Assembly (NCBI RefSeq): GCF_001261915.1
Contig: NZ_CVRT01000148.1
Location: forward strand, 1-64,000
Length of the DNA: 64,000 bases
Direction of reading: 5' to 3'
Source: Halorubrum sp. SD626R
GTDB lineage: Archaea > Halobacteriota > Halobacteria > Halobacteriales > Haloferacaceae
The notes under the pieces are model-generated. The model did no database searches and was not told the origin of the DNA. It saw only the letters and a list, made by a program, of their open reading frames with translations. How positions within the stretch are numbered: position 1 is the stretch's first letter; each line of letters starts with the position of its first letter. The translations under genes and the position numbers were made by a program. Positions 27,568 to 63,873 of this stretch are shown in pieces.

Positions 27568-27585
27568 GCGGTGACGAGAGGCGCC

Positions 27586-32140: not shown

Positions 32141-32178
32141 CTTGGTATAGCGGCGCCGCGAATCGGACGCGACCCGCG

Positions 32179-35023: not shown

Positions 35024-36304
35024 CTACGGCCGCCGGCGCGAGAGCTCGACGAAGGCGTCCGACAGCAGGTCGACGCCGATCCCGAGACTCTTCTCGTCGA
35101 CGTCGAACGTCGGCGTGTGGTGACTCGTCGGGTGGTCGGTGCCGACGAGGACGTACGACGCGAGCCCGCCCGCCTCCTGGACCCGCCCCATCAGATACGT
35201 GCCGTCCTCGCTCACGCCGAACTCCTCGGTCGGGATCACGCGGTCGACGCCGTCGACGTCCCACGCCACGTTGCCGATGACCTCCCGGAGCGCCGGGTGG
35301 CTGTCGACGCACGGCGACTCGCTGATCACGCGGGGCGTCACGTCGCAATCGTGGAGCTCCGCGGCGGCGTAGAGGACCCGTTCGAGCTCGGTGCGCGCGT
35401 ACGTCATCAGCGCGGTCGTCTCGCCGCGGACCTCGGCGTCGATCGTCACCGCCTCCGCGATGACGTTGCTCGCGGAGCCGCCCTCGATCCGGCCGACGTT
35501 CACCCGCGTCGCCCCGTCCGCGTGGCGGGCGATCGCGTACGCGTTCTGGATCGCGGTCGCGGCCGCCTGCATGGCGTTGGCTCCCTCGTTTGGCGCCTTC
35601 CCGGCGTGGGCGCTCGCCCCCTCGAAGGTGGCCGTCAGGTGCGCCATCGCCAGGGGACTCTCCGCGCCGGCGACGATCTCGCCCGTCGGGTGCCCGAGCC
35701 CGACGTGGAGCGCGAAGAGGTAGTCGACGCCGTCGAGGTGGCCGCTCTCGGCCATCGCCTTCCCGCCGCCGGAGACCTCCTCGGCGGGCTGGAAGAACAC
35801 CTTCAGCGTCCCCTCGAACGCGCTCTCCGCGACCGCCTCCAGCGTCCCGAGCGCGATCGCGAGGTGCGCGTCGTGGCCGCAGGCGTGCATGTAGCCGTCG
35901 TGTTCGGAGCGGAACCCCTCCGCGGTCGGCCGGTGGTCGGGGTCGGTCGACTCCCGGATCGAGATCGCGTCGAGGTCGACGCGCAGGCCGATACACGGCC
36001 CCTCGCCCCGTGCGAGCGTCGCGACGACCCCCGTGTGACCGCCCGCGGTCCGTTCGAGCCGGTCCTCGTCGACCCCGGCGTCGCGCGCCCGGTCGAGCCA
36101 CGGCCGGATCTCGTCGTCGTCGGGGACGGCCATCCGCTCGTCGGTCGCGAGCGCATCGCGGCCGACGGCGATATCGTCGACGCCGATGCGTTCGAGCTCC
36201 TCGACGACGCGGGCGGTCGTCCGGAACTCCCGCCACCCCGGCTCCGGGTGGCGGTGGAACGCCCGCCGGAGATCGCTCAGTCTGGCTCGCGCGTCGTGGG
36301 ACAT
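35024..36304 (-). CDS. M20 family amidohydrolase/deacylase (copy 2)
   Basis: About 426 residues and clearly a paralogue of the gene at 29,364. It shares AFHRHPEPGWREFRTTARVV, MHACGHDAHLAIALGTLEAV, GASAHAGKAPNEGANAMQA and EFGVSEDGTYLMGRVQEAGG. The metal-binding HxCGHD and lid motifs are intact. It probably cleaves a related N-acyl compound. The ATG at 36,304 lies about 30 bases after TATA-like TTAAAT (36,331-36,336); the longer frame to 36,568 runs through noncoding DNA. Its promoter does not show the GTGTACAC element, so it may lie outside the shared control. Confidence 0.87.
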   Translation of the reverse strand: MSHDARARLSDLRRAFHRHPEPGWREFRTTARVVEELERIGVDDIAVGRDALATDERMAVPDDDEIRPWLDRARDAGVDEDRLERTAGGHTGVVATLARGEGPCIGLRVDLDAISIRESTDPDHRPTAEGFRSEHDGYMHACGHDAHLAIALGTLEAVAESAFEGTLKVFFQPAEEVSGGGKAMAESGHLDGVDYLFALHVGLGHPTGEIVAGAESPLAMAHLTATFEGASAHAGKAPNEGANAMQAAATAIQNAYAIARHADGATRVNVGRIEGGSASNVIAEAVTIDAEVRGETTALMTYARTELERVLYAAAELHDCDVTPRVISESPCVDSHPALREVIGNVAWDVDGVDRVIPTEEFGVSEDGTYLMGRVQEAGGLASYVLVGTDHPTSHHTPTFDVDEKSLGIGVDLLSDAFVELSRRRP

Positions 36305-36378
36305 CTGTCCGGAAGGGAAGGGGTCAGGGTATTTAACATAGCCGCCGGACGGGCGAGAGATCGGAGCGAAAGGGGGTG

Positions 36379-36834
36379 TCACTCTTGGGGCGACCCGGAC
36401 CAGACCGCCTCGATCCGCCGCTCGATCGCATCGAGTACGGTCGCGTAGACTTCGAGCGGATGGAGCGACGGCAGGTCGAGATCCGAGACCGTGGCGCCCG
36501 TCGGCGGCTCGTGAAAGTGTACCCGGCTGTTGTGCGCGTTCGGGTGCCGGTCCCAGCGACACTCCCACCGGCCGTCGTCACGGGTTTCGACGTAGTGTAT
36601 CGAGAAGTCACCCGTCACGAACCACCGAACGTCGATTCGCGCCGTGGTCGCCGTATCCGGGTAGCGGTCAGCGGCGAGCAGCGCACGGAGGAGCCGCGGT
36701 TCGTGCGGGTCCGGTTTGAACCGAATCTCGGCGACCAGCGGATCGGCCGTCAGTTGCCGCTCGATCAACCGTAACGTCTGTCGATCGGGAGGGCCGGTCG
36801 ATCCGGATGCCGAATCGCCCGAAGGTGGGTCCAT
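36379..36834 (-). CDS. TumE-like (DUF6516-type) toxin
   Basis: About 151 residues. The region FVTGDFSIHYVETRDDGRW, followed by CRWDRHPNAHNSRVHFHEPP and LHPLEVYATVLDAIERR, has the layout of TumE/DUF6516 proteins, where an RWD...PH...H motif ends a small nuclease-like fold. I assign it as a likely toxin. The ATG at 36,834 is two bases behind the stop of the upstream HTH gene (36,837), so the two form an operon with the regulator first. Confidence 0.62.
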   Translation of the reverse strand: MDPPSGDSASGSTGPPDRQTLRLIERQLTADPLVAEIRFKPDPHEPRLLRALLAADRYPDTATTARIDVRWFVTGDFSIHYVETRDDGRWECRWDRHPNAHNSRVHFHEPPTGATVSDLDLPSLHPLEVYATVLDAIERRIEAVWSGSPQE

Positions 36835-36836
36835 CT

Positions 36837-37364
36837 TCAGGCAGGAATTAGGTGACCGTCGTTCTCCGAGAGCCGGCGGGCCAGTTCGTAGAGCCGGATA
36901 TTCCGAATCACGCCCTTCCACTCGCTCACCGCGGTCATTCGGTCGTGAATCGTCTCGTGGTCGGCGGCTTCGAACGCCGTGACGGCGTTCGGATCGGCGG
37001 TCTCGAACCGATCTTCGTATTCGGCTCGCCGCTCTTCGAGGGCCGCGACGCGATCGAGGATCTCGTCGATGGAGAGATCCGCGGCGATCCGGCTCGCGTC
37101 CTGCCATTCGAGATAGCCGTCGTGTCGCTCGTACGTCGCGGGGCGGTGCTCTCGGTTCGCGCGAGCGACGCCCATCTCTGCCAGTCGGTCGAGGTGCTTC
37201 TTCGCCGCGTTCGGAGAGCAGTCCGCGAGCTCGGCGACCTCGGTGTACGCCGTCGGCGACGTGACTCCGAGTACCACGTCGTAGACGCGCCCGAACGTGT
37301 CGGTTCCCTCCTGCCATCGAGACGCTTCAGTCCCGTGTTCGGGGGCCGGATCGAACTCGGTCAT
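36837..37364 (-). CDS. HTH-domain regulator, likely antitoxin of the TumE-like protein
   Basis: About 175 residues. The N-terminal winged helix-turn-helix (YDVVLGVTSPTAYTEVAELADCSPNAAKKHLDRL) is followed by a helical C-terminal part that includes IDEILDRVAALEERRAEYEDRF and WKGVIRNIRLYELARRL. Such regulators precede TumE/DUF6516 genes in haloarchaea and probably act as antitoxin and repressor. The ATG at 37,364 (MTEFDPAPEHG) is preceded by AT-rich DNA with several possible TATA boxes (37,385-37,420); an upstream in-frame ATG at 37,427 is less likely. Confidence 0.7.
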   Translation of the reverse strand: MTEFDPAPEHGTEASRWQEGTDTFGRVYDVVLGVTSPTAYTEVAELADCSPNAAKKHLDRLAEMGVARANREHRPATYERHDGYLEWQDASRIAADLSIDEILDRVAALEERRAEYEDRFETADPNAVTAFEAADHETIHDRMTAVSEWKGVIRNIRLYELARRLSENDGHLIPA

Positions 37365-37463
37365 ACCGTCGTGTACGCACTGTGTTTCAATATATCTTCG
37401 TATTTTGCAAATATATGAGTCAGGCAACGAAGATGCTCGGCAACGTATCCGAGGGTCGGTCCG

Positions 37464-37650
37464 CTACGCCCCGTCCGCCGCCGACACCCGCACCACCAGC
37501 TTGCCGATGTTGTCGCCGGCGAAAAGTCCGAAGGAGGCGTCGGGCGCGTTTTCGAGTTCGTCGACAATCTTCTCGCAGTGTTCGAGTTCGCCATTGGCAG
37601 CCCACTAGGCCGGCCGCTCGCTGGCCTCACTGAACCGGCTCCAAGTCACA
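37464..37650 (-). pseudogene. Truncated 3' copy of the NADP-dependent oxidoreductase gene
   Basis: Read on the minus strand it encodes NGELEHCEKIVDELENAP, then DASFGLFAGDNIGKLVVRVSAADGA and a stop. This matches the last about 45 residues of the intact gene at 38,440-39,462 (LEHRETVVKGLEHAPDAF, LGLFAGDNIGKQVVRVSA). DNA similarity continues to about 37,650, where CGCTCGCTGGCCTC is shared. There is no start and the rest of the gene is absent. The DUF433/DUF5615 pair lies between this piece and the intact gene. Confidence 0.8.
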
Positions 37651-43736: not shown

Positions 43737-46700
43737 TTACGCGCCGACGGGGACGAAAGCGGTGAGCGATGCGGTCGCGCCGCGTGCCACCGCCGCATCG
43801 GGTGCGGAAGACGGCGGCGCGTCGGGTGCGAGCGAGTGGGAGACGGGCGCATCGAGGGCGGACGCATCGAGGGCGTTCGCGTCGGCGACGGACGCGTCGG
43901 GGGTGTCGGGCGTGCCGATCGCCGCCGTCGTGTTCGCGTCGTCGGTGGTGCCGTCGGTCGTTCCCGAGCCGTCGTCGGCCGAGCCGGACTCGCCGTCGCT
44001 CTCACTTCCACCGCCGAGCGTCGTTTCCTCGAGTTCGACCGTGGCGGCCGCGTCGTCTGCGCCGACGACCTGCGCCTCGGTCACGTTCACCGTGCCGGTC
44101 CGGGAGGTCGGCGTGCCGTTGGCGATCGAGAGGCCGGTCGAGAGCTGGTACGGTCCCGTCGCGCGGACGCTGGTGTTCGTGTAGCCGTTCTCCGGGCCGA
44201 ACTCGTCATAGCCGGTCGTCGAGTACGGCACCGTGAGCTCGAAGTTGCCGTTCGCGTCGGCCTCGGCGTACTGCGTGTACCGGAACGTCCCGCCGTTGGG
44301 CTTCTGCATCCGGACCGTGGCGCGCACTTCCTGGCCGGCCTCGGCGCCCGACCCCTCGATCGTCGCACCGGGCACCCGTTCGAACGTCTTCACGAAGTCG
44401 TCCTGGAACGCCCGGAGGAACGATTCGCCAAGGAGGTCCTCGACGCTGGTGTCCTCCGGAATCAGCTGCTGGAGGACGCGGACCTGAAGCGCCGAGGGCG
44501 ACTGCCCCCGCGCCTGCGAGGCGTGGACGAGCCGGTGGTGCTCTAGGGCTTCCACGCGCTCGGAAGGCAGGCTTCCGACGCCGCCGATCTGGGCGCTGCC
44601 GTCTTCCGCGACGTACTCGCGTGCCGCGGTCATGTTGTCGAACTGCCGAATCGTCGTCGTCCGCTCGCTCGGGATGACGCTGACCTCGATCTGCTCGCCG
44701 CCCTGGGTCTGGGCCGTCCGGGTCTCCCAGTCGACGACGACCGGTTCAGGCTCGACCGCACTACCATAGTGTTCGTAGAGGCGGATCATCTGGCTCTCGT
44801 GGTAGCGCTGGGTGTTCACCTGCATCACCGTCCGGAACCCGCCCTGCTCCGTCTGCTGGTAGAGGACGCGGTTGAAGTCCTCGCGCGTCTCGTTGCCCGA
44901 GTAGAACGTGACGGGGGCGCTGAACTTGGAGTTCGGCGACGCCATCTGGGAGTCGACCATCACGTAGCGGGTGTTCGCGCCCTCGTCGCTCTGGCTCGCG
45001 AGGACTTCGCGAGCTTCCGCCTCGCTCGGCGCGAGGAGGTAGTCGGCCGCCTCGCCCGCGTTCTGCTGGAACGGGTTCGCGTTCGGGATGCGCTCGGCGC
45101 GCGTGGTGATCCAGTGGCCGTAGTCCCACCACGACTGCACGCCGTAGGCGCCCTCCGGGTAGTCGAAGTCGCCGCCGGGGGGGCGCTCGTAGGTGCCGTA
45201 CAGCTCCATGGGGTTGTCCGCGCCTTCGAGCTCGCCCGGCGTGGGCGTCTCGTCGTTCATCCACTGGAGGCTCCCGTCCCACTGAGTGACGCTGCCGGGG
45301 TTACTGGAGTTGCCTGCCTGCCAGACTGGGGTGGCGACGCCGACGAGCGGGACGATCAGCACCGCGACCACCGCGAGCGCGGTCATCACCTGCCACCCCT
45401 CGATGTCGCGGAGCGCGGCGAGGGAGGTGAGGTCGATCGCGTCGAGCGTCACCTGCAGGAAGTACGCCGCGCCGACCGCGACGATCACCGCGAGGTAGTA
45501 GTTGAAGCGGGTCTGGGTGAACGCGGCGCTCCCGATGAACGCCGCCCAGACGACGAAGTAGAGCTCCTCGGCGTCGTACTCGACGAGGAACGTCGCGCCG
45601 ACGAGGAAGGCGGCGGCGATGACGAGGCCGACCACCTGCCAGTCGAGGCCGACGACGCCGCCGATGGCGCCGTAGAGCTGTGGGACCGCGTAGACGGAGC
45701 CGATCACGGCGAGTGCGGAGACGATGTAGACGGAGTCGGAGAAGTCGTCGGAGCGGTAGAGGGGACGCGCGAGGATGTAGAGGACCGCGGCGAGCGCGAG
45801 GAAGAACGCGAAGCCGTACTGGGAGAGGACGAAGTCAGAGAAGGCGGCCCCCTGAAGCGGAGGTTGCGCCTCACCGATAGTACGGGCTCCTGCTCCTGCA
45901 CTGAATCCGACGAAGCCGAGGAGGTTGCTTGTGAGCGTTGTCCACAGCGAAGGAATCACGAGCCAGACGACGCCAGCAGAGGCGAAAATAAGCCCACCGA
46001 CAACCGGGGGAAAGGTTGCAGCGTCGAGATCGCGCACCTCCCACTGGCGAGCGAGCCAAGCGAGGAAGACAGCACCGACGGCGACGCCGAATGGGAGGAT
46101 GACTTGAAGAAGGGAGTACTGAGTGGGTGAGAACGAGAACGTGTCGAGCGGTATCAACTGCATCAGGGTAGTGACGCCCATCGCGACCGCGCCGACGAAT
46201 GCGATCGGTTCGGGGCTCCGACCGTGGAAGGTATCATTCGTGAGCTTGATCGCGAGGTAGACGCCGGTAAAACCGACCATGAGGACAGCGGGCGGCCACG
46301 TCCAGAGATAGAGACCGAGAGCGATCCCAGCGCTGATCGCGTAGACTGCTGGGCGCTTGAGTGCGGTCCAGTTGCGGTCGACGATCAACTCCCAGACGGG
46401 TGCCTCGCGCTCGGCGATGGCAAAGGCGACGAGGAACGCAAGGACGGCAATACTTTGGAAAAGGACCTCGGCTGCGCTGTGGTCCGGGAAGCCAACGAGA
46501 CTGTAGCTGAAGAAGGTTCCCGGTAGGAGCGCGAGCACAACGACGGCAACGAGTGCAACAAATCGGTCGACGAACCGACGTGCGATGAAGTAGGTCGGAA
46601 TCGCGACAAGCGTACCGGCGATGGGGGCCATGACGAGCATGACCTCCTCGGCGCTGCCCATAACCGGACGAGCGATCCAGATCCCGACCACCATGATATG

Positions 46701-46997
46701 GTCCCAGAGGGTACCGAACTGGCCTGCCTGATATCCAACTGGGAAACCAGTCCAAACATCGTATGGCATTCGACTGGGCCAGTTCTCCATGATATACGAT
46801 GTCTCACGGAGATGATACCAGGGGTCGTTCCCGCGGAAATACACCCTGCCGTCGAGAACGAAGTTTCCGTATGACCGGAGACGTGTCCACAACATGAAGC
46901 TCAATGCGGCGAAAAGAACCGGAACGTGATGCCACCGTGCGAGGAGATCAGCGGGGGACTGATCCGACTCTGCCGGTGGGTCATTTGAGTCACTCAT
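43737..46997 (-). CDS. aglB: Archaeal oligosaccharyltransferase AglB (STT3)
   Basis: A 1086-residue N-glycosylation enzyme. About thirteen membrane helices (residues about 20-560) include the first catalytic loop (YFRGNDPWYHLRETSYIM). The catalytic WWDYGHW follows at about 621-627, then a periplasm-like beta-rich domain, and a low-complexity Ala/Asp tail. It moves lipid-linked glycans to Asn in S-layer and archaellum proteins outside the cell. Codon use is GC-biased from the C-terminus to about residue 372, and looser in the N-terminal third (45,880-46,997), which suggests a recombined gene. The ATG at 46,997 matches the family. Confidence 0.97.
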   Translation of the reverse strand: MSDSNDPPAESDQSPADLLARWHHVPVLFAALSFMLWTRLRSYGNFVLDGRVYFRGNDPWYHLRETSYIMENWPSRMPYDVWTGFPVGYQAGQFGTLWDHIMVVGIWIARPVMGSAEEVMLVMAPIAGTLVAIPTYFIARRFVDRFVALVAVVVLALLPGTFFSYSLVGFPDHSAAEVLFQSIAVLAFLVAFAIAEREAPVWELIVDRNWTALKRPAVYAISAGIALGLYLWTWPPAVLMVGFTGVYLAIKLTNDTFHGRSPEPIAFVGAVAMGVTTLMQLIPLDTFSFSPTQYSLLQVILPFGVAVGAVFLAWLARQWEVRDLDAATFPPVVGGLIFASAGVVWLVIPSLWTTLTSNLLGFVGFSAGAGARTIGEAQPPLQGAAFSDFVLSQYGFAFFLALAAVLYILARPLYRSDDFSDSVYIVSALAVIGSVYAVPQLYGAIGGVVGLDWQVVGLVIAAAFLVGATFLVEYDAEELYFVVWAAFIGSAAFTQTRFNYYLAVIVAVGAAYFLQVTLDAIDLTSLAALRDIEGWQVMTALAVVAVLIVPLVGVATPVWQAGNSSNPGSVTQWDGSLQWMNDETPTPGELEGADNPMELYGTYERPPGGDFDYPEGAYGVQSWWDYGHWITTRAERIPNANPFQQNAGEAADYLLAPSEAEAREVLASQSDEGANTRYVMVDSQMASPNSKFSAPVTFYSGNETREDFNRVLYQQTEQGGFRTVMQVNTQRYHESQMIRLYEHYGSAVEPEPVVVDWETRTAQTQGGEQIEVSVIPSERTTTIRQFDNMTAAREYVAEDGSAQIGGVGSLPSERVEALEHHRLVHASQARGQSPSALQVRVLQQLIPEDTSVEDLLGESFLRAFQDDFVKTFERVPGATIEGSGAEAGQEVRATVRMQKPNGGTFRYTQYAEADANGNFELTVPYSTTGYDEFGPENGYTNTSVRATGPYQLSTGLSIANGTPTSRTGTVNVTEAQVVGADDAAATVELEETTLGGGSESDGESGSADDGSGTTDGTTDDANTTAAIGTPDTPDASVADANALDASALDAPVSHSLAPDAPPSSAPDAAVARGATASLTAFVPVGA

Positions 46998-52878: not shown

Positions 52879-53385
52879 TTATTTTATCCGCCGAACAAAG
52901 CTTTCTATTGATGTCTGGATAAGATCTGTATCAAACTGTAGTCCTCCGACTGGGACATCAACAACCTGTTCTAGTGTCGTAGCGGCAATGGGTCCGCACA
53001 ATAATCCGTCAATACCATCTTTTTCTGCTCGCACCCCTCTGATAATCTCCTCTTCAATTGATTGGGATGGAAGTGGTTTAATTCGATATTCAATATCATC
53101 AACCTGGATACGACTCGGTGCACGGTCGCACGCCCCCCGCGTAGTTATTAGTCCGATCATAGGTTGTGTATAGCCTTCCTCTTCTTGTAATCCGTGGATG
53201 ATTTTTTGGAGTGTTTCAACCCCAAAATTTGTGTGATTTCCACTCGTGATCTTATAAAGTGTACTCACAGGGATATTATGACGCTCCGCAAATTCTTCTA
53301 TGGTTAAATCCTGCTGTTGTAACGCTTCGGACAGACGTTCTTCAAACTCGTCCGTGACTACTCCATGGAGAACCTCGTTCCACAT
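52879..53385 (-). CDS. Cro/CI-type HTH regulator with C-terminal ligand-like domain
   Basis: About 168 residues. The HTH (EERLSEALQQQDLTIEEFAERHNIPVSTLYKITSG, about 15-50) resembles Xre/Cro type. The second domain contains IGLITTRGACDRAPSRIQVDDI and EKDGIDGLLCGPIAATTLEQVV, which looks like an effector-sensing domain, slightly like the PrpR_N sensor fold. It is divergent from tctC across 183 bases and is the natural candidate regulator of the transport genes. The ATG at 53,385 is chosen; a longer reading from 53,427 adds 14 unlikely residues. Confidence 0.7.
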   Translation of the reverse strand: MWNEVLHGVVTDEFEERLSEALQQQDLTIEEFAERHNIPVSTLYKITSGNHTNFGVETLQKIIHGLQEEEGYTQPMIGLITTRGACDRAPSRIQVDDIEYRIKPLPSQSIEEEIIRGVRAEKDGIDGLLCGPIAATTLEQVVDVPVGGLQFDTDLIQTSIESFVRRIK

Positions 53386-53568
53386 ATCTAGTGAGTTGAT
53401 AGGAGCATTGATAAATATCACTCTCAATACTGACAGATTTTTGATACATAAAACTCCGTCTTGAGAATAGGCTCAGGAAATAGAAATATAGAGAATTATT
53501 CTTCCATATCTTGATACCAGACTTCCACAAAGTAAAATATTTACCACAGCACTATGTAGACTTCTTAT

Positions 53569-54579
53569 ATGGACCGGAGAGCGTATCTCCGAGGGTTTGC
53601 TTCGGCCACCGCTATCGGAGTCGCCGGGTGTTCTGATACGCTGGGGGATCAAAGCTATCCCAGCCAATCGATAACAATCATTGTTCCTTGGGCGCAAGGT
53701 GGTGGAACCGATCGATCAACGCGTATCCTCGTATCTCCATGGAAAGAAGAGATCGGTGGCGAATTCGTGGTAGAGAATTATTCTGGTGGGTCGACACAAG
53801 TTGGTGGAGAGCAGTTATACAACGCTAAACCAGATGGATATACGGTTTCGATGTGGAACCTCCCACAAATGAATGCCACCCGGTTGTTCCAGGATGCTCC
53901 ATATACAATTGAAGATTTCGACTATATTGGAACAAATCATTTTGACCCAACCATGTGGTTCGCCGGCACACAAACTCCATACGAGAATATGACAGATCTT
54001 ATTGATGCCGCAAGGGACCAACCGGGTGAGATCACGGTTGGGCTTACCTCCGCAGTCGGGAATACTGCTCTCTCAGCTCTCCTGATACAAGAAACATACG
54101 ACGTTGAGTTTAATCTTGTAAACCTTGAAGGTGGATCGAGTGTCCGCCAGAGCGTTCTCGGCGGACAAGTTCCTGTTGTCGTCAACCAACCATGGGCGTT
54201 CAATCCCACGAACATCGGAGAAGTGACACCCCTCGGCTCACACACATCTGAGCGCCAGAGTCTTTGGCCAGATACCCCCTCGTTCGCTGAATTGAATCTC
54301 GGCGATGTCCCACTCGTTGACGAAGGGCTTGGGCAGTGGAAATTGATGATGGCCCCCGGTGGTCTTGAGGAGGAATATCCAGACCGATATCAAGCGCTTG
54401 TCGACAGCTACAAACGCGCCATGGAGACAGAAGAGTATCAAGAAAGAGCAGCTGAACAGGGAAGCCTTAACGAAATTCTCCGGTATAATAATCCCGAGGA
54501 CACATTTGAAATAGTACAGAATGTGAGTAACTCAATGCGAGAATTTGAGGGCCTCTTTGAGGCATTCCGTAACCAATGA
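53569..54579 (+). CDS. tctC: Tripartite tricarboxylate transporter substrate-binding lipoprotein TctC
   Basis: A 336-residue exported solute-binding protein. The N-terminus MDRRAYLRGFASATAIGVAG followed by CSD has a twin-arginine motif and lipobox, for a Tat lipoprotein. The TctC/BugE family core follows: SITIIVPWAQGGGTDRSTRIL, FVVENYSGGSTQVGGEQLY, LVNLEGGSSVRQSVLGGQVPV. It binds a carboxylate outside the membrane and delivers it to TctAB. First of three genes with overlapping ends: tctB starts four bases before this stop. AT-rich codons. Confidence 0.92.
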   Translation: MDRRAYLRGFASATAIGVAGCSDTLGDQSYPSQSITIIVPWAQGGGTDRSTRILVSPWKEEIGGEFVVENYSGGSTQVGGEQLYNAKPDGYTVSMWNLPQMNATRLFQDAPYTIEDFDYIGTNHFDPTMWFAGTQTPYENMTDLIDAARDQPGEITVGLTSAVGNTALSALLIQETYDVEFNLVNLEGGSSVRQSVLGGQVPVVVNQPWAFNPTNIGEVTPLGSHTSERQSLWPDTPSFAELNLGDVPLVDEGLGQWKLMMAPGGLEEEYPDRYQALVDSYKRAMETEEYQERAAEQGSLNEILRYNNPEDTFEIVQNVSNSMREFEGLFEAFRNQ

Positions 54580-55055
54580 CAACATTATCATTCCGTGGTC
54601 ATATATTCAAAATAAACGCTAAGGAGTTGATTTTTCCATTCCTCGTACTTATCTTCTGTGGGGCGTACTACGTTGATACAAGAGGCCTTCCAGACCGTTC
54701 TGTGTTGTACGCAGAACCAATTCTGTACACGACGGTTCTTTTTGCACTCGCCGTCATTTTTGATTTCGGTGTTCAGTTTAACCCGAACGGTACAGATCAG
54801 GGCGAATCTGTGAGCAGCATGACCGGTGTCACGACCGATAAGTGGCGGTCAAAAAACGCTCTCTACGTTATCCTATTAACCAGCGCGTATCTCGTGGGGA
54901 TGCGTATCCAATTCACGCTAGCTACCTTTCTGTTCCTAGGAGGGACCTTGTACACTTTAGGTGAACAAAATCGACAGGTTCTGATCCTGTACTCCACGGT
55001 GTTAACAGCAATTATTTACGCGGTATTCGTGTTTTGGCTCAGAATTCCACTATGA
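54576..55055 (+). CDS. tctB: TctB-family small membrane subunit
   Basis: A 159-residue protein with four predicted helices (FPFLVLIFCGAYYV near residue 20, ILYTTVLFALAVIFDFGV near 50, YVILLTSAYLVG and the pair at the end). It is the small membrane subunit of the tripartite tricarboxylate transporter. Starts inside the tctC stop (ATGA) and its own stop overlaps the tctA start (ATGA), so the three are translated together. Sequence conservation in TctB is low; the assignment rests on position, size and topology. Confidence 0.85.
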   Translation: MTTLSFRGHIFKINAKELIFPFLVLIFCGAYYVDTRGLPDRSVLYAEPILYTTVLFALAVIFDFGVQFNPNGTDQGESVSSMTGVTTDKWRSKNALYVILLTSAYLVGMRIQFTLATFLFLGGTLYTLGEQNRQVLILYSTVLTAIIYAVFVFWLRIPL

Positions 55056-56557
55056 CCGCTGTACTACTTCTTTTCCCAGGTGCACTCGGAACCGGACTTG
55101 GGCTATTGCTACAGCCTCCTGTCATCGCTGCGATTTTCATCGGGGTTGCGATTGGTATTATCTTTGGGGCCATACCTGGATTTTCCGCGACGATGACTCT
55201 TATTTTGTTCACGCCGGTCACAATTCCGTTTGACCCTTCAGTCGCGCTAGTTTTCCTAGTTTCAGCTTATGGAGGTGCTGTATACGCCGGATCAATCCCA
55301 GCCATCCTTATAAATACTCCTGGTGCACCTGGATCAGTTGTCACCTGTTGGGATGGGTACGAGCTCACGAAATCCGGGCGTGCGACATACGCACTTGCCG
55401 TGTCTGCCGTCGTATCAGGGCTCGCTGGAATTATTGCCGCCGTTGCTCTTCTTGCGACCGGTCCTATACTTGCAGACTTTGCGCTCGGTTTCGGTCCAGT
55501 TGAACTCTTTCTCCTCGCAATATTCGCGCTCACAATCATTCCTGCTGCGAAAGGCCAGTCACTATTAAAAGGGCTGTTAGGTGGGACATTTGGATTATTA
55601 GTCGCTACCGTTGGAAGTGATCCTCAGCTCGCACAGCCGCGAGCAATTTTTGATCAACCACTACTCAGAAGTGGTATTGATTTTGTCGTGGTACTCATTG
55701 GTCTGTTCGTATTCGCCGAGATGATTTTTCTTGCAGCACGTGGTGAGATACTGACTACGGATACTGACAGATCAGATGATCGGGCGCAAGTTTTTGAGGG
55801 GATCCGCGCTGTTATAGCCCGCCCTGTTGAGTTTTTACGCGGGACCTTCATTGGTATTTTTATTGGCTCTCTCCCGGGAGCTGGTGCGGACGTTGCGAAC
55901 TTTGTGGCGTACAACGAAGCGAAGCGATGGGCTTCGAATCCTGCAGAATTTGGAAAAGGCGCCATTGAGGGAATTATCGCTGCGGATTCATCGAACAACG
56001 CAACCCAGGGTGGCGCACTCATCCCCACACTGACTGTCGGGATCCCTGGAAGCGGCTCAACAGCAGCACTCTTGAGTGCTTTCGCAATTCATGGCCTCAA
56101 TCCGGGCCCTGGACTGTTCCAACGTTCCGGGGTTCTAGTATACGCCCTGATTTTTTCATTGTTCCTCGGTAATATCCTCATTTTAGTATACGGACTAAGT
56201 GGTGCACAGTACTTTGGAAAAATCTCTAGAATTCCGATTCGGTACATCATTCCCACAGTCATTGTTCTTGCGATCGTCGGTGCGTTTGCTGTTCGTAACT
56301 CCTATCTCGATATTTTTATTATGCTTCTTTTTGGATTAGTTGGCATTATTCTCGTCATAAGCGATTATCCGATGGTAAGCGTTGTTATCGGTGTTATCGT
56401 TGGTGGGTTCGCCGAAGAGGGATTTGTACAGGGGTGGACGATCAACCAAGGCGACGCCGTTCAGTTCCTTGCTGCAAGCAACATCTCTATCATTCTCCTC
56501 ATACTGATTGTCCTCTCACTTGTCATTACTGCGGTCCGAAACCGCCAATCTGAATGA
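55052..56557 (+). CDS. tctA: TctA-family large membrane subunit
   Basis: A 501-residue transporter with about eleven helices. Two family motifs are clear: GIIFGAIPGFSATMTLILFTPVTIPFDP, with YGGAVYAGSIPAILINTPGAPGS, and GSLPGAGADVANFVAYNEAKRW, with NNATQGGALIPTLTVGIPGSGSTAALL. It uses an ion gradient to import di- or tricarboxylates caught by TctC. The ATG at 55,052 overlaps the tctB stop. Rare in haloarchaea compared with bacteria; AT-rich DNA fits recent gain. T-rich DNA at 56,605 may end the transcript. Confidence 0.94.
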   Translation: MTAVLLLFPGALGTGLGLLLQPPVIAAIFIGVAIGIIFGAIPGFSATMTLILFTPVTIPFDPSVALVFLVSAYGGAVYAGSIPAILINTPGAPGSVVTCWDGYELTKSGRATYALAVSAVVSGLAGIIAAVALLATGPILADFALGFGPVELFLLAIFALTIIPAAKGQSLLKGLLGGTFGLLVATVGSDPQLAQPRAIFDQPLLRSGIDFVVVLIGLFVFAEMIFLAARGEILTTDTDRSDDRAQVFEGIRAVIARPVEFLRGTFIGIFIGSLPGAGADVANFVAYNEAKRWASNPAEFGKGAIEGIIAADSSNNATQGGALIPTLTVGIPGSGSTAALLSAFAIHGLNPGPGLFQRSGVLVYALIFSLFLGNILILVYGLSGAQYFGKISRIPIRYIIPTVIVLAIVGAFAVRNSYLDIFIMLLFGLVGIILVISDYPMVSVVIGVIVGGFAEEGFVQGWTINQGDAVQFLAASNISIILLILIVLSLVITAVRNRQSE

Positions 56558-56684: not shown

Positions 56685-57593
56685 TCAGTCAATAGGTCGT
56701 GCAGGTGAGCCGACGGCAAGCGTGTCCTCACTAATATCATCTAAAACAGTTGAGTTCGCGCCTACCTCCGCAGAATCACCGATGCTCGTATGACTACCAA
56801 CAACGACGTGTGGATGAATCCTGACCTCCTTTCCTGTTGTTGAACTCCCGGCAAAGTGACAGCCAGGACTCATCATGTTACGAGCGCCGATCTTGACGTT
56901 GTGTGCAAAGTTACACAGGTTGTGTATCTTTGATCCCTCACCGATTCGCGTCTCTTGGAAAGTAGCCCTGTCTACCGAGCAATTCACACCAAAGTGAACA
57001 TCATCCTCAATAACGACACTTCCTTCGTGAGGCTTGTTCATGACCCGATCGTCTGATGTGAGTTGATATCCAAATCCCGTTTGTCCAATAGAAGTTCCTG
57101 TACCGAGAATACAGCGGTCCCCTATCGAGACCTTCTCTCCGATTGTAACGCCCGGTCCTAACATACACTCGTCGCCGATAGTGACTGCAGGCCCAATAGT
57201 GACGCTGGGCCCAATCACACAGTTATCACCGAACGTCGCATCGGAAGAGATAGTCGCCGATGGATGGATCGACTGGTTCAACGGTCGTTCAATAAAAAAA
57301 TCGTGGACTGCCCTGACGAAATCCGACTGCGGCGTTGATGACGAAATCAGTGCGCAGTCGACAGGGGCATCGGGATGTACTTCAGTAATTACGGCACCAG
57401 CGTTTGACTCTAGCAATTCTTGTTCGTATCCTTCTTGGCAAAAAGAGAGCTTTGTTGCTGTCGCCTCGTCTAGTGGAGCAAATCCCGAAACTAGTTTTTC
57501 TTTTCCCCTGTGTTCTCTCGTTAGATGAGATGCAATTTCAGTCGATTTGACTTCCCTACCCGTATTTTTAAATCGGATATTGTTAGTTGACAT
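56685..57593 (-). CDS. LpxD-like acyltransferase with left-handed beta-helix
   Basis: A 302-residue protein. The N-terminal domain (FAPLDEATATKLSFCQEGYEQELLESNAGAVITEV) resembles the uridine-binding domain of LpxD. The hexapeptide repeat region from ATISSDATFGDNCVIGPSVTIGPAVTIGDECMLG includes the LpxD-like QTGFGYQL, INxxxDR-like VNCSVDRATFQETRIGEGS and FAHNVKIG. Bacterial LpxD adds an N-acyl chain to UDP-GlcN for lipid A, which archaea do not make. It more likely acylates an amino sugar for the surface glycan. It starts 23 bases after the CoA-transferase gene ends, on the same strand. Confidence 0.85.
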   Translation of the reverse strand: MSTNNIRFKNTGREVKSTEIASHLTREHRGKEKLVSGFAPLDEATATKLSFCQEGYEQELLESNAGAVITEVHPDAPVDCALISSSTPQSDFVRAVHDFFIERPLNQSIHPSATISSDATFGDNCVIGPSVTIGPAVTIGDECMLGPGVTIGEKVSIGDRCILGTGTSIGQTGFGYQLTSDDRVMNKPHEGSVVIEDDVHFGVNCSVDRATFQETRIGEGSKIHNLCNFAHNVKIGARNMMSPGCHFAGSSTTGKEVRIHPHVVVGSHTSIGDSAEVGANSTVLDDISEDTLAVGSPARPID

Positions 57594-57616
57594 TAATCTG
57601 TATCCGGTTTCGTTAT

Positions 57617-58801
57617 TTAGATGACGCCGTCCGAGCGGAGCTCTTCGATCTCTGTTTCGGAAAGCCCGAGCCGGGAATGGAGTACCTCTTCGTTGTGTTC
57701 CCCTTTCGTAGGTGACGGTTCTACCGCAACATCCGAACTCTCCGGGAACTTGATCGGTGACCCCGGAACTTTGATCTCACCCGCTTCTGGATGGTTAAGT
57801 TTGACAATAGAGTTTCGTTCCTGGAGGTGCGGATCATTCAGTACCTCCTGTATTGTCTGGACAGTTCCGCAGGGAATCCCGCGATCGAGTAGTCGTTCCT
57901 CTACAGTATCGGTCTCCAGATCCTCTGTCCACGATTTGACGAGTTCATCGACTTTGTCGATATTGTCCACGCGGTCTACGTTTGTTTCGAACCGCTTGTC
58001 ACCAAGCAAGTCTTCTCGACCAATCACTTTGAGTAGGTCCTGCCAGTGATCGTCGGAGGCACATATTATAGTAATGAATCCATCCTTCGTCTTATATGAG
58101 TTGTACGGTGCCTTTGCCATTGCACTGTGCCGATTTCCCGTCCGGGACGGTATCGACGGGTCTCGGTACTGAATGGCCAACTGGGACAGTAACGACGGCA
58201 CTACCGCATCATACATACCGACCTCAACAAGCTGTCCGCTTCCCGTCTGTTCTCTCGCGTAGAGCGCGGCTAATATACCGCTCACGAGATGGATTCCGCC
58301 AAAAAAATCTCCAGGAGCAATCCCTGTCTTCATGGGGTCTTGATCCGGATTCCCTGTTACGTCCATCACCCCGCTTGTTGCCTGAACGATGAGATCCATC
58401 GCAAGCCGATCTTTCTTCGGACCTGTACGGCCAAACCCGGTTCCCTGCGCGTATATCAGTTCGGGGTTAATTGAGGATAGTGTCTCGTATCCCAGTCCCA
58501 ATTTCTCCATCGTTCCGAGTGAAAAATTCTCAATGATGACATCAACGTCAGTGGCGAGGGATTTGAAGATATTTTTTCCCCGCTCAGATTTCAAATTGAG
58601 CGTGATTCCTTTCTTGTTGGAATTGAGCATCACCAGCTCTTCTGGTTCTCCTTCCTCAACACGCGAACGCAACGGTTCTCCGAATGGTGGCTCTACTTTT
58701 ATTACATCTGCTCCGAGATATGAGAGAATGAGTCCGCAGTACGGACCATTGTATATTTGCCCCACATCAAGAACCTCTATGTCTTCAAGTGGTTGTTCCA
58801 T
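57617..58801 (-). CDS. Family III (CaiB/BaiF) CoA-transferase
   Basis: About 394 residues. LEDIEVLDVGQIYNGPYCGLILSYLGADVIKVEPP, NKKGITLNLKSERG, AMDLIVQATSGVMDVTG (with the catalytic Asp of the family), and PYNSYKTKDGFITIICASDDHW are all typical. It moves CoA between carboxylic acids such as succinate and an accepting acid, by anhydride intermediates at the active-site Asp. The ATG at 58,801 follows the Shine-Dalgarno GGAGG (58,805-58,810). The LpxD-like gene follows in one operon; with the TctCBA transporter next door, it may activate an imported acid. Confidence 0.92.
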   Translation of the reverse strand: MEQPLEDIEVLDVGQIYNGPYCGLILSYLGADVIKVEPPFGEPLRSRVEEGEPEELVMLNSNKKGITLNLKSERGKNIFKSLATDVDVIIENFSLGTMEKLGLGYETLSSINPELIYAQGTGFGRTGPKKDRLAMDLIVQATSGVMDVTGNPDQDPMKTGIAPGDFFGGIHLVSGILAALYAREQTGSGQLVEVGMYDAVVPSLLSQLAIQYRDPSIPSRTGNRHSAMAKAPYNSYKTKDGFITIICASDDHWQDLLKVIGREDLLGDKRFETNVDRVDNIDKVDELVKSWTEDLETDTVEERLLDRGIPCGTVQTIQEVLNDPHLQERNSIVKLNHPEAGEIKVPGSPIKFPESSDVAVEPSPTKGEHNEEVLHSRLGLSETEIEELRSDGVI

Positions 58802-58894: not shown

Positions 58895-59632
58895 ATGACC
58901 TCGGCTGTTGATAGCGAACAGAATCTTGAGTTTACGTACGATACATATCGGGACCTGCTAGAACAGCTTCGGAGTCAGCGATATCAGTTCAAAACATTTG
59001 ACGATCAGATTGGGAACAATGAGATTGTCCTTCGGCATGATGTCGACTGGTCCCCAGCGAAAGCGCTTCGGATGGGGGAAATTGAACAAGAATACGACGT
59101 AAGCTCCACGTACTTTTTTATGCTTTCCTGTCCGCTCTATAATACGTTCTCAGATTCGGTCTTGGGTGCAGTCGAAGAGCTACAAACAATGGGGCATGAA
59201 GTTGGCCTCCACTTCAGTTCCTATCCGTACTGGGACGAGGATGTTGAACCATCGAAGCAGGCAATCGAGGCCCGTGTGCAGTCAGAACTCAATGCTATCG
59301 GAACCCGAATAGAGGGGTTGTCTTCGGCAGTATCGTTTCACATGCCACCTGACTGGGTATTCGGCGAGTCGTTCGATTCGTTCGTGAACACGTACGGCGA
59401 GCACTTTTTTAATCAGCTCGAGTATATCGCCGATTCGAGACAGCGGTGGCGGTCCGAGCATCCGTTCGCAGACGGGTATCCAGACCGCGCGCAGATTCTA
59501 GTACACCCAGGTTCGTGGGGAGATGAAGATGCGTCGTTTGGTACACGAATTGAACACGACATCGAGGCAAAGTTCGAAGATCTTCGGAGACAATTCCAGT
59601 CGGATTATCGAGTCGATTTTGACTCCACCTAA
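58895..59632 (+). CDS. NodB-like polysaccharide deacetylase family protein
   Basis: A 245-residue protein with polysaccharide-deacetylase motifs: EIVLRHDVDWSPAKALRM (Asp pair, about residue 47), GHEVGLHFSSYPYW (His, about 110), and ILVHPGSWG near the end. Enzymes of this family remove N- or O-acetyl groups from sugars of polysaccharides; some relatives are in O-antigen or capsule loci. Here it probably trims the lipid-linked glycan or its precursor. TATA-like AAATATA (58,873-58,879) lies about 20 bases before the ATG. Convergent with the next gene, two bases between stops. Confidence 0.8.
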   Translation: MTSAVDSEQNLEFTYDTYRDLLEQLRSQRYQFKTFDDQIGNNEIVLRHDVDWSPAKALRMGEIEQEYDVSSTYFFMLSCPLYNTFSDSVLGAVEELQTMGHEVGLHFSSYPYWDEDVEPSKQAIEARVQSELNAIGTRIEGLSSAVSFHMPPDWVFGESFDSFVNTYGEHFFNQLEYIADSRQRWRSEHPFADGYPDRAQILVHPGSWGDEDASFGTRIEHDIEAKFEDLRRQFQSDYRVDFDST

Positions 59633-59634: not shown

Positions 59635-60984
59635 TTACCTCCTCTGCCCTGACCCAATAGTGTACAGCCAGTGACGGTCGGTCTCGATATTAATAGCGTC
59701 CCGACCATCAACGATGACGAGATCATCGAATTTGTCCCACGCTATGTCTTCGAACGCTTCATGTGCGGTCACGAGTACAGCGGCGTCCAAACCGATATCA
59801 TAGAGCTCATCGACCGTCGTGGGCGTTGCGCCTTTGAACTCCGACAGATCCTCTATCACCGGATCGACCCCGTACACGTTCGCTCCTTGACCGGCTAGGC
59901 GTTCGATTATCGGTTTAGCAGGTGTGTGTCGGGTTTCTGGAATTCCCGAATCATAGGTAACGCCGAGCACAGCGATGGACGCGTTACTAAGCTGCGTATC
60001 TACAGCATTGAGCCCTTCAAGAAGTTTGTCGACCGTAAACGCCGGCATCGAGTCATTTATTTTTCTAGCCGTCCGCATCAGCTTTCCCGGAGTTTCGAAC
60101 TGTTCGATCAGGAAGTACGGGTAGTAGGGGATACAATGTCCCCCGACGCCAGCACCGGGGTTGTGAAGGTCAATATAAGGGGAGTCGTTTGCGACATCAA
60201 TTGCCTCAAGCACGTCAATACCGGTCTCGTCAACGAATCTCGCCAGTTCATTAACGAGAGCAATATTGACATCACGGTATACGCCCTCAAACAGTTTAAC
60301 CGCTTCAGCCGTTGTTATGTCAGAGACTGTAACGACATCGTTATCGGTTATTTCTTTGTAAATCGCTACCGCCGCATTCGTACTCATAGCATCGATTCCA
60401 CCGACAACTTTCGGGTAACTACCACGGATATCTTTGAGTGCGCGACCACTCTTGGTCCGTTCCGGACAGAAAGCGACACCGAACTCACCTTCGTTAAGAT
60501 CACTTTCTTTTTCAATGAGTGGTGCGACGACATCGGCACATGTGCGGGGTGGAACAGTTGATTCCACGATAACGAGGTCACCTGCGTCGATACCGGTAGC
60601 TATGTCGGAGACGACAGATCGAACAGTCGAGAGGTCGGGTTTGTTCTCTTTCGTCACTAGTGTCGGGACGATTATCACGTGGACCGCCGCTTCAGATGCC
60701 GCAGATTCCGAGTCAGTGGTTGCTCGCAGCGAACCGTTTGCGACTGTCTCCGCTACCAATTCATTCAGCCCGGGTTCGTGGACAAACGGAGACTGACCGT
60801 TGTTAACCGTCTCAACGACTTCGGGATCAATATCCACCCCTCGGACGTTCCCCGTTACATCGGCATAGACCGCAGTGAGAGGAAGGCCCATCTTTCCCAG
60901 ACCATAAACCGCGACTGGAATCTCACCTTCCAGTAGGGCTGTTCGCTTCGTGTTCTCCGATAAGTCTGAATCGTATATTTTCAT
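59635..60984 (-). CDS. UDP-N-acetylglucosamine/mannosamine 6-dehydrogenase (WbpA/WecC type)
   Basis: A 449-residue NAD enzyme. VYGLGKMGLPLTAVYADV (about residues 27-44), CPERTKSGRALKDIRGSYPKVVGG, LFEGVYRDVNIALVNELARF, and the catalytic cysteine in PGAGVGGHCIPYYPYFL (about 261). It oxidises C6 of a UDP-N-acetylhexosamine to its uronic acid. It is the last gene of a four-gene operon; the oxidoreductase gene ends 12 bases before it. Distinct from the dehydrogenase at 48,309, so the locus likely makes two uronic acids. Confidence 0.88.
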   Translation of the reverse strand: MKIYDSDLSENTKRTALLEGEIPVAVYGLGKMGLPLTAVYADVTGNVRGVDIDPEVVETVNNGQSPFVHEPGLNELVAETVANGSLRATTDSESAASEAAVHVIIVPTLVTKENKPDLSTVRSVVSDIATGIDAGDLVIVESTVPPRTCADVVAPLIEKESDLNEGEFGVAFCPERTKSGRALKDIRGSYPKVVGGIDAMSTNAAVAIYKEITDNDVVTVSDITTAEAVKLFEGVYRDVNIALVNELARFVDETGIDVLEAIDVANDSPYIDLHNPGAGVGGHCIPYYPYFLIEQFETPGKLMRTARKINDSMPAFTVDKLLEGLNAVDTQLSNASIAVLGVTYDSGIPETRHTPAKPIIERLAGQGANVYGVDPVIEDLSEFKGATPTTVDELYDIGLDAAVLVTAHEAFEDIAWDKFDDLVIVDGRDAINIETDRHWLYTIGSGQRR

Positions 60985-60996
60985 GATTTACTTCTC

Positions 60997-61941
60997 CTAG
61001 TTGTTAGGGAAGACTTCGTGTTCGACCGCCTGTGCGAGCCGTACCGCTGCAAGTCCATCCTCGGCTGTTACTGATGGCTCTCCCCCGCCAGATACAGTAT
61101 CAAGGAACGATTGGAGTTCTCGTTTTAGCGGTTCGATGTTTTCCACAAACGGCCGTTCGATAACGCTCTCGTGGCGATACCTTGTTTTGTCATCTCTGCT
61201 TACCATCTGTCGCATCGATCCGCGGTAGATTTCAATACGCCGGTCGAGGTAATCCACGCTCACGTATCCCTCGTCGGTGGCGATTCCGAGCTCCCGAATC
61301 TTCTGTTCAGTTACTCTGCTCGCCGTGAGTGTTGCTATCGCTTCCCCACTGAACGTGAGTGTCGACGTTGCGTGTCTGCCGTCTACACGGCCGACTCCGT
61401 CGATATGCTCTGGATCCTCTCCTACAAGGTTTCTGATAATATCAAGATCGTGGATCATCAGATCAGTAACGACCGAATCCTGGATATCACGCCCGGGATC
61501 TGGTCCGAGCCGACGCACTTCGTAGGCAAGCACTTCTTTACCAGCAAGCACGTCCTCAAGTGCGAGGACAGCGGGGTTGAATCGTTCGATGTGACCGACT
61601 TGAATACGGACACCCTCGCGGTCGGCCAATTCGACGAGCTCCTCGCCTCGTTCGGGATCATCTACAAACGGCTTCTCGACGAGGATATCGACACCTCCCT
61701 TGATACACTTACAACCAATTTCATAGTGGAACTGCGTGGGGACCGCGACTGAGACGGCGTCTACCCGTTCGATAAGGGCATCGAGACCCAGCGCCGCTGT
61801 GTCGTACCGCTCTGCGACTTCTGTGGCGCGTTCTTCATCCATATCGCTAACCCCAACGAGGTTGGCCTCGGGAAGTGTGTTGTACACCCTGCTGTGGTTG
61901 ATACCCATGCTTCCGACGCCAATGACGCCGACATCCGTCAT
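60997..61941 (-). CDS. Gfo/Idh/MocA oxidoreductase, WlbA/WbpB-like
   Basis: A 314-residue NAD-dependent sugar oxidoreductase: GVIGVGSMGINHSRVYNTLPE (about residues 4-24), then VDAVSVAVPTQFHYEIGCKCIKGGVDILVEKPF (EKP motif near 90) and HDLDIIRNLVG (His near 168). WlbA/WbpB enzymes oxidise C3 of UDP-GlcNAcA to the 3-keto sugar, the second step toward UDP-2,3-diacetamido-2,3-dideoxyglucuronic acid. Overlaps the aminotransferase gene by four bases. Confidence 0.87.
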   Translation of the reverse strand: MTDVGVIGVGSMGINHSRVYNTLPEANLVGVSDMDEERATEVAERYDTAALGLDALIERVDAVSVAVPTQFHYEIGCKCIKGGVDILVEKPFVDDPERGEELVELADREGVRIQVGHIERFNPAVLALEDVLAGKEVLAYEVRRLGPDPGRDIQDSVVTDLMIHDLDIIRNLVGEDPEHIDGVGRVDGRHATSTLTFSGEAIATLTASRVTEQKIRELGIATDEGYVSVDYLDRRIEIYRGSMRQMVSRDDKTRYRHESVIERPFVENIEPLKRELQSFLDTVSGGGEPSVTAEDGLAAVRLAQAVEHEVFPNN

Positions 61942-63032
61942 TTATTCCCCTCCATATACGATCGAACAGCATCGGCGATCGTCTCTATATCATCTACGTC
62001 TACATTAGGATGGATCGGCAGCGATACCACCTCGCGGCTCGCCCGCTCGGCGACAGGCGCCTTGTGGCTAACGTCGTCATATGCCGGCTGTTTGTGGATA
62101 CAGGTTGGGTAGTAGACTGCGCTTCCCACACCTTGTTCTTCGAGATAGTTCATCAGTTCGTCTCGCTTTTCGGAGCGTATCGTGTACTGGTGGTAGACAT
62201 GTGTCCGTCCAGCAGGTTCGACCGGAGTTGTGACTCCAGTTTCTTCGAGCTGCTCAGTCAATTTCTCGGCATTCTCCCGTCGTCGCTCTGTGTATTTTGG
62301 CAGGCGATCCAACTGTGCTCGTCCGAGTGCAGCCGCGATGCTCGTCATCCTGAAGTTGTGGCCGAGTCGGACGTGTTCGTAGCTCCCACCGTCCATGGAG
62401 CGGCCGTGGTTGATATACGAGGACGCGCGCGCAGCGATCCCCTCGTCGTCGGTGGTAATCATACCGCCCTCACCGGTGGTCATGTTCTTCGTTGGATAGA
62501 AAGAGAAACACCCGACATCACCGACGGAACCAACGCGGTTGCCGTCGACAGTCGCACCGTGGGCTTGTGCAGCGTCTTCGACGAGCGGCACATCGTGTTC
62601 GTCGGCGATGTCGGCTAGTGTGTTGAGGTCTGCCGGGAGGCCGTAGAGATGGACCGCGAGGATGGCGTCGACAGGCTCGGTTTCGAGCGTCTTACGTACC
62701 GAATCGGGGTCTAGATTGTACGTGTCCGGACGCACGTCGGCGAAGACTGGCTCCGCGCCCGCCAGTCGGATCGCGTTGGCGCTAGAGACGAACGAGAACG
62801 GCGTCGTTAGCACTCGGTCACCGTTGTCGATGCCGAGTGCTTCTAGCGCCGCGTGGAGAGCCGTCGTGCCGTTCGCCGTGGCGACCGCGTGGTCGACACC
62901 ACAGAACTCTGCAAACTCCTCCTCGAAGGCACGCACTTCTGGCCCGTCCGCCAACATCCCAGAATCGAGTACTTTGGCAACTCGGTCGTGTTCCTCGTCT
63001 CTCATCTGTGGGTTCGCTATCGGGATATTCAC
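61938..63032 (-). CDS. DegT/DnrJ/EryC1 aminotransferase, WlbC/WbpE-like
   Basis: A 364-residue sugar aminotransferase. NGTTALHAALEALGIDNGDRVLTTPFSFVSSANAI (PLP phosphate site), LVEDAAQAHGATVDGNRVGSVGDVGCFSFYPTKNMTTGEGG with the Schiff-base lysine in YPTKNMTTG (about residue 184), and GHNFRMTSIAAALGRAQL. In the pathway it puts an amino group on the C3 keto position with glutamate as donor (WbpE/WlbC). Overlaps both neighbours by four bases. Confidence 0.9.
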   Translation of the reverse strand: MNIPIANPQMRDEEHDRVAKVLDSGMLADGPEVRAFEEEFAEFCGVDHAVATANGTTALHAALEALGIDNGDRVLTTPFSFVSSANAIRLAGAEPVFADVRPDTYNLDPDSVRKTLETEPVDAILAVHLYGLPADLNTLADIADEHDVPLVEDAAQAHGATVDGNRVGSVGDVGCFSFYPTKNMTTGEGGMITTDDEGIAARASSYINHGRSMDGGSYEHVRLGHNFRMTSIAAALGRAQLDRLPKYTERRRENAEKLTEQLEETGVTTPVEPAGRTHVYHQYTIRSEKRDELMNYLEEQGVGSAVYYPTCIHKQPAYDDVSHKAPVAERASREVVSLPIHPNVDVDDIETIADAVRSYMEGNK

Positions 63033-63610
63033 AGGTCGTTCTTACCTTGGAGTTTATCCGGAAGCGGTTTAAACTCTGCTGGTACGCCGACAGCTAGTGT
63101 GTCAGCGGGTACGTCTTCAGTGACGACCGCACCAGAAGCAACGAACGAGCGTTCACCGACGGTAATCTCGGGATTGATTGTGGCATTTGCGCCAATCGAA
63201 GCCGACCTCTCTACTGTCGGCCCCTCTAGATCGACGTTTTGTCGGACGGGATACGGATCGTTCGTCAGTACCGCATTCGGTCCGATAAAAACCTCATCTT
63301 CAATGGTGGTGTGAGATGGAATATAGACACCAGTTTGGAGGCTCACTTTTTTCCCGATCTTGCTATATCCGTCAATAACGGTCTTCGTCCCGATGATTGA
63401 TTCTTTCCCTATTTCGGTTTGTTCACGAATAAGAACATCATGACCAGTTTGTACGTAGTCATGAATTTTAACATCTGCGTATATCGTGCTTCCCGCACGA
63501 ATCGTAACACTGTCACCGAGAATAGTGGGGTTGACTTTGGTGTCGTACTCGTATCCGACAGTAGTCCGTTCATCTATAGTACAATCTGAACCGCTGGAAA
63601 CATTGGACAT
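63029..63610 (-). CDS. Hexapeptide acetyltransferase, WlbB/WbpD-like
   Basis: A 193-residue left-handed beta-helix protein. Repeats such as DSVTIRAGSTIYADVKIHDYV and GPNAVLTNDPYPVRQN (catalytic-loop asparagine region) are followed by ERSFVASGAVVTEDVPADTLAVGVPAEF. It acetylates the 3-amino group with acetyl-CoA, the last step to UDP-GlcNAc3NAcA. The ATG at 63,610 is chosen; an ATG at 63,637 adds nine residues. First gene of the operon; AT-rich ATAATATATC at about 63,643-63,652 is the likely promoter. Confidence 0.85.
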   Translation of the reverse strand: MSNVSSGSDCTIDERTTVGYEYDTKVNPTILGDSVTIRAGSTIYADVKIHDYVQTGHDVLIREQTEIGKESIIGTKTVIDGYSKIGKKVSLQTGVYIPSHTTIEDEVFIGPNAVLTNDPYPVRQNVDLEGPTVERSASIGANATINPEITVGERSFVASGAVVTEDVPADTLAVGVPAEFKPLPDKLQGKNDL

Positions 63611-63873
63611 CTTCGAATTAGTGTTTAATCGGGACACACAGATATATTATGATCCTGTAATGCATTGTTGAACACAAGACGGCGTTGGGGTAGGGTCGAT
63701 AACTCACGATTTCACGGCGTCAAAGAGTGGTTCTTACACTCAGAAGATTTAGTAGTTGCCGCTAGCGGTAGTGGTCAAAGGGCCAAAACTATCGTATTCT
63801 ACTCCTTTGATCAGGTGACGACGGCGATGCCTCTCGCAAATATGTCCGGAGAAAGAAGAGCAGGTAGCGAGCT
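63611..63873. other. Intergenic region before the acetyltransferase operon
   Basis: No gene seen. AT-rich box ATAATATATC at about 63,643-63,652 probably drives the operon at 63,610. A plus-strand frame at 63,665-63,877 has no family features and is taken as chance. Confidence 0.5.

Follow-up and report, generated by a model that had tools for sequence, protein, structure and literature searches.

A haloarchaeal glycosylation island with an LpxD-like acyltransferase gene inside a CoA-transferase and TctCBA module: possible acylation of an amino sugar with an imported organic acid

The stretch of DNA analysed here (64,000 nucleotides, hereafter the window) belongs to contig C148 of a haloarchaeon, Halorubrum sp. 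SD626R, whose draft assembly spans 3.25 Mb and is 94.5% complete. On the minus strand, an LpxD-like N-acyltransferase of 302 aa (56685-57593) is encoded downstream of a family III (CaiB/BaiF) CoA-transferase of 394 aa (57617-58801). On the plus strand, the genes for the solute-binding protein TctC (53569-54579), for TctB (54576-55055) and for the permease TctA (55034-56557) converge on the LpxD-like gene and end 127 bp from it, while the gene of an HTH regulator (52879-53427, minus strand) diverges from tctCBA. The LpxD-like gene thus sits between tctA and the CoA-transferase gene, and the genes of this module are intact. Divergent from the CoA-transferase gene and 93 bp away from it lies a gene for a CE4/NodB-like (polysaccharide deacetylase-like) protein of 245 residues (58895-59632, plus strand). 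It is followed on the minus strand by four Wbp-type genes, identified at family level: a WbpA-type nucleotide-sugar (UDP-HexNAc) 6-dehydrogenase (59635-60984), a WbpB-type Gfo/Idh oxidoreductase (60997-61941; it scored highest, though under the cut-off, with the UDP-GlcNAc 3-dehydrogenase model), a WbpE-type DegT/DnrJ sugar aminotransferase (61938-63032) and a WbpD-type hexapeptide sugar N-acetyltransferase (63029-63637). Genes were called with a simple script, and overlapping or antisense frames were filtered by acidity.

These genes are part of a region of low GC content (0.45-0.57, versus 0.55-0.72 across the preceding 10 kb) that contains AglB/STT3, sugar dehydrogenase, aminotransferase and glycosyltransferase genes, a glycosylation island. 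It is marked by a large AglB/STT3-like oligosaccharyltransferase (43737-46997, minus strand), which was identified by eye and not by a family scan. Further along the contig, at about 70.7-75.5 kb (L003:10760-15469), are a NeuB gene (above the cut-off of the N-acetylneuraminate synthase model), a NeuD gene and a NeuA-like gene, a set corresponding to a sialic/legionaminic-type acid pathway. By eye, positions 24492-37500 of the window look catabolic, with aminotransferases, M20-type peptidases, a BCCT-like transporter and an aldehyde:ferredoxin oxidoreductase-like protein.

The initial annotation had described the protein encoded at 56685 as an LpxD-type N-terminal domain joined to a beta helix with an AHN region, and the profile searches bore this out. 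The LpxD N-terminal (uridine-binding) domain PF04613 was detected with 38.6 bits (E 9.7e-10, cut-off 30.8) and the Hexapep repeats of the left-handed beta helix with E 2.3e-28; the best PDB match was the LpxD of Chlamydia (2iu8, E 6e-34). The protein passed the LpxD subfamily model NF002060 (283.8 bits versus a cut-off of 207) and did not reach TIGR01853, the equivalog model of lipid A LpxD (219.3 versus 242.5); ten of its relatives were likewise below the latter cut-off. His231, the His of the AHN motif, aligned with the catalytic His of LpxD (H239 in E. coli), was invariant in all 22 haloarchaeal rows of the alignment and was kept in the bacterial rows. Phe51 and Tyr56 fell in columns that we take to be the uracil-stacking Phe and Tyr of LpxD, the Tyr column not being conserved among the relatives. 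Residues 142-159 form an extra beta-helix coil of 18 residues, common to bacterial LpxD and missing from the other 25 archaeal relatives. A single-sequence AlphaFold2 model of the protein was set aside (mean pLDDT 40), and no relative was found in the viral contigs searched.

The C-terminal tail of bacterial LpxD binds acyl carrier protein. This helical tail was missing from all 26 archaeal rows (the window protein and 25 others), the bacterial rows having a longer tail, and this suggests that acyl-CoA is the more likely donor of the LpxD-like enzymes. In the phylogenetic tree, the archaeal proteins formed a single clade separate from bacterial LpxD (100/100), within which the window protein grouped with that of the archaeal locus L030 (91/96). 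A close bacterial origin of the window gene was considered and is not supported by this tree.

Relatives of the LpxD-like protein at E<=1e-30 were present in 22 of 391 haloarchaeal genomes, including that of the window, and a fuller family search added four. The neighbourhoods of the 21 other loci, taken up to 20 kb each, are glycosylation clusters: a CE4-like gene was found in 18 of them, overlapping or abutting the LpxD-like gene in about 11, a family 2 glycosyltransferase in 17 and Wbp-type genes in about six. A role as a glycan-side N-acyltransferase is compatible with every LpxD-like locus examined. By analogy with the bacterial Wbp/Vim systems, the common job of the family is most likely the N-acylation of a UDP-amino sugar after its deacetylation.

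In Porphyromonas gingivalis and Tannerella forsythia, the Wbp enzymes yield a di-N-acetylated uronic acid; the proposed next steps are removal of its C-2 acetyl group by the CE4 protein VimE and addition of serine or glycine by VimA, giving a 2-N-seryl-3-N-acetyl uronamide (PMC7468200). The window resembles these systems in having WbpA/B/E/D-type genes, a CE4-like deacetylase candidate and an N-acyltransferase; in the bacteria, the latter exchanges an acetyl group of a 2,3-diamino uronic acid for a different acyl group. The acyltransferases themselves differ: VimA is an N-acetyltransferase/FemAB-like protein that uses serine or glycine, whereas that of the window is LpxD-like and adjoins an importer and a CoA-transferase. 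The protein encoded at 58895-59632 is likely a deacetylase, although its identification is weak: it matched TIGR02764 with E 5e-4, a profile comparison with PDB deacetylases gave E 0.001, and a relative scored just under the Pfam cut-off. In addition, it has Tyr110 at a position within the likely metal motif where 17 of 19 sequences have His.

An operon with a CaiB-type CoA-transferase and an adjoining TctCBA importer had also been annotated; the CoA-transferase and importer genes were confirmed, and the operon is likely. CoA_transf_3 (PF02515) covered the full length of the 57617-58801 protein (386 bits, residues 5-370), whose gene ends 23 bp from the LpxD-like gene on the same strand. Its Asp136, in the motif LAMDLIVQ, is by motif the candidate catalytic Asp that would form the acyl anhydride. 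TctA, TctB and TctC (53569-56557) were all above their Pfam cut-offs (PF01970, PF07331 and PF03401). The closest relatives of the CoA-transferase were 60-65% identical to it, and a close CoA-transferase occurred together with TctCBA in nine other haloarchaea (G325, G242, G226, G339, G197, G256, G029, the MAG QS_3_64_16 and Halomarina sp. PSR21). TctA was 64-68% identical to the TctA of other haloarchaeal sulfoacetate/sulfur-linked loci. In trees, the window TctC nested in a clade otherwise made up of SauS-bearing genomes (100/99), and the CoA-transferase grouped with the SauS/Tct-linked clade (85/90), the moderate support for the latter being due to the long branches on which the island genes, TctC included, all lie. 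In the plasmid collection, no record was recognised that had both a CoA-transferase and an LpxD-like gene, and the HTH regulator was absent.

SauS, the acylating sulfoacetaldehyde dehydrogenase, was found in all nine of the other genomes with CoA-transferase and TctCBA, and was above the equivalog cut-off in both examples scanned. Xsc-like genes were present in at least four of the nine, above cut-off in Halomarina (L248) and G339 and near it in G325 and G029. In Halomarina, a stretch of about 10.5 kb holds SauS, Xsc, Pta, the CoA-transferase and TctABC; in Haloterrigena sp. KLK7, the order TctC-TctB-TctA-SauS-CoA-transferase forms a single run in one direction. The haloarchaeal set thus reads as a route in which sulfoacetate is taken up, activated to sulfoacetyl-CoA and then reduced by SauS; it is synteny that points to the CoA-transferase for the activation. 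The bacterial pathways reviewed in PMC12890257, in contrast, activate sulfoacetate with ligases (SauCD, SqwKL) and not with a family III CoA-transferase. Several loci (L248:3057-13511, L247:2554-8182, L101, L104 and L119) have the CoA-transferase in place of the known sulfoacetate-CoA ligases together with TctABC and SauS, and some of these sets also carry Xsc and Pta. We found no description of such a CoA-transferase-type haloarchaeal set in the literature searched, from which most subscription journals were missing. Two of the loci have ComA-like (phosphosulfolactate synthase) and ComB-like genes directly upstream of the Tct/SauS genes (L101:4383-6662 and L119:5392-7867), which might make sulfolactate from released sulfite. 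The same type of TctCBA was also seen near a PAPS reductase-like gene, and without CoA-transferase or SauS, in Natronococcus and relatives (L108, L115, L116, L117, L125 and L126).

The window shares with these sulfoacetate sets the lineage of its CoA-transferase and TctCBA, but its genome lacks SauS and Xsc. No SauS was matched in its genome at E<=1e-50 (best weak match E 2e-8), and the best Xsc match there had 263 bits against a cut-off of 676; since the genome is a draft, either gene may have been missed. None of the nine TctA-only or HTH-type genomes searched alongside had SauS, so SauS accompanies the CoA-transferase in every searched genome except that of the window. The position that SauS holds in the KLK7 run is occupied in the window by the LpxD-like gene. 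Sulfoacetate is the best candidate we can offer for the acid handled by the module.

The HTH regulator was found in only three of the 391 haloarchaeal genomes, that of the window and two of Natronomonas, including Natronomonas aquatica, and in all three it lies with TctC-TctA in a glycosylation island. Both Natronomonas islands (L113:3946-8779 in N. aquatica, G220:C63, and L110:6835-12526 in G036:C3) combine the regulator and TctC/TctA with a PylC-like ATP-grasp gene that adjoins TctA or lies one gene off. ATP-grasp enzymes link carboxylates to amines; the Natronomonas genes could therefore represent alternative solutions to the same task of joining an acid to an amine. A scan of 39 other loci with the two ATP-grasp proteins as queries and a limit of E<1e-6 gave no homologue. 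The HTH-linked TctA and TctC of Natronomonas did not form a clade with those of the window, so a single transfer of the HTH-Tct unit is not supported, and the association may have arisen by independent recruitment or regulator exchange. The L110 island additionally has a PIG-L deacetylase.

The initial annotation had proposed that an imported organic acid is turned into its CoA ester and attached to an amino sugar of the glycan. This scheme is plausible and has partial support; the deacetylase partner, the sulfoacetate connection and the regulator common to two other glycosylation islands were not foreseen in it. From gene content and homology we infer five reactions. The Wbp-type enzymes (59635-63637) would produce a UDP-2,3-diacetamido uronic acid, from which the CE4-like protein would take off one N-acetyl group, at C-2 by analogy with VimE. 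TctCBA, controlled by the HTH regulator, would bring in an organic acid, most likely sulfoacetate, and the CoA-transferase would convert it to the CoA ester, most likely sulfoacetyl-CoA. Finally, the LpxD-like enzyme would take the acyl group off CoA and, by means of His231, pass it to the amine exposed by the deacetylation. The model for this last step is LpxD itself, which shares the N-terminal domain, the beta helix and the catalytic His, and which likewise acts after a deacetylase (LpxC), with acyl-ACP at the C-2 amine of UDP-3-O-acyl-glucosamine. The predicted product is a surface glycan bearing an additional fixed negative charge.

We put the probability of this coupling of import, CoA activation and transfer to an amino sugar at roughly 0.45. 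It is favoured by the lineage of the module, by the presence of the LpxD-like gene at the SauS position and by the lack of SauS and Xsc. Against it, the trio of CoA-transferase, Tct and LpxD-like genes was found, among the genomes searched, in that of the window only. The recurrence elsewhere that had been put forward as a check was not observed: the CoA-transferase or TctABC was in none of the 21 other LpxD-like loci (within about 10 kb), and the LpxD-like gene in none of the nine other CoA-transferase and TctCBA loci. Because the trio occurs in one genome, where the catabolic enzymes are missing, the coupling is deduced, with indirect support, from a single case and not from a recurrent system. 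That the acid is specifically sulfoacetate and ends up on the glycan, giving N-sulfoacetyl glycans in which an environmental sulfonate is used for decoration instead of catabolism, is a bolder proposal, and we hold it to be doubtful. If true, archaeal surface glycans could bear an imported sulfonate as an amide, sulfonate cycling would be tied to cell-surface chemistry, an LpxD-type enzyme would have a role outside lipid A, and the deacetylate-then-reacylate logic of Wbp/Vim would reach the archaea. The literature searched, which left out most subscription journals, yielded no paper that deals with an LpxD-like enzyme of archaeal glycosylation or with sulfoacetyl-bearing glycans.

A serious contender, to which we grant a sizeable chance somewhat short of even, is that the LpxD-like protein is an ordinary sugar N-acyltransferase using acetyl-CoA or another common acyl-CoA, and that recombination brought the CoA-transferase and TctCBA into the island next to it, as a module for catabolism or as a relict. 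The mutual independence of the two units in all other loci fits this explanation, as do the low GC of the island and the case of G226, which carries the LpxD-like gene and the CoA-transferase/Tct module on different contigs; glycosylation islands swap genes readily, and the neighbourhood could therefore be chance. However, the LpxD-like gene is located inside the module, at the place of SauS and in a likely operon with the CoA-transferase, the module genes are intact in a genome without SauS, and the same regulator and transporter unit recurs in two other glycosylation islands. Ordinary catabolism, which the initial annotation had named as a refutation of the coupling, does account for the module at the SauS loci; in the window genome the catabolic enzymes for it are missing.

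There is a small chance that the CoA-transferase and TctCBA handle an acid other than sulfoacetate, for example of the oxalate, itaconate, mesaconate or succinate type, in carbon metabolism, whether or not they also supply the LpxD-like enzyme. The best NCBIfam matches of the CoA-transferase were indeed mesaconate, formyl/oxalate and glutarate CoA-transferases, all under cut-off, and more distant haloarchaeal CoA-transferases adjoin CoA ester lyase and TRAP genes; the nearest relatives of both the CoA-transferase and TctC, on the other hand, all come from SauS genomes. Finally, a true lipid A-like acylation pathway was rejected as highly improbable despite the NF002060 score, since LpxC was above cut-off in none of 194 haloarchaeal genomes searched (that of the window among them), the ACP-binding tail is lacking, TIGR01853 was not reached and the archaeal clade stands apart from bacterial LpxD.

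Two of the other LpxD-like loci touch on the pseudaminic/legionaminic pathways (PseB/C/H/G/I). The clusters at L042:9529-14731 and L049:7799-14812 have PseB-, PseC- and NeuB-like genes next to the LpxD-like one; the pathway needs an N-acyltransferase, and no other acyltransferase was recognised by eye in either cluster. It is possible that the LpxD-like protein substitutes there for the acetyltransferase PseH. Such a PseH/LegH-like role, assigned here from gene neighbourhood, would differ from the published archaeal case, in which LegH is annotated as a different type of protein (PMC6137143).
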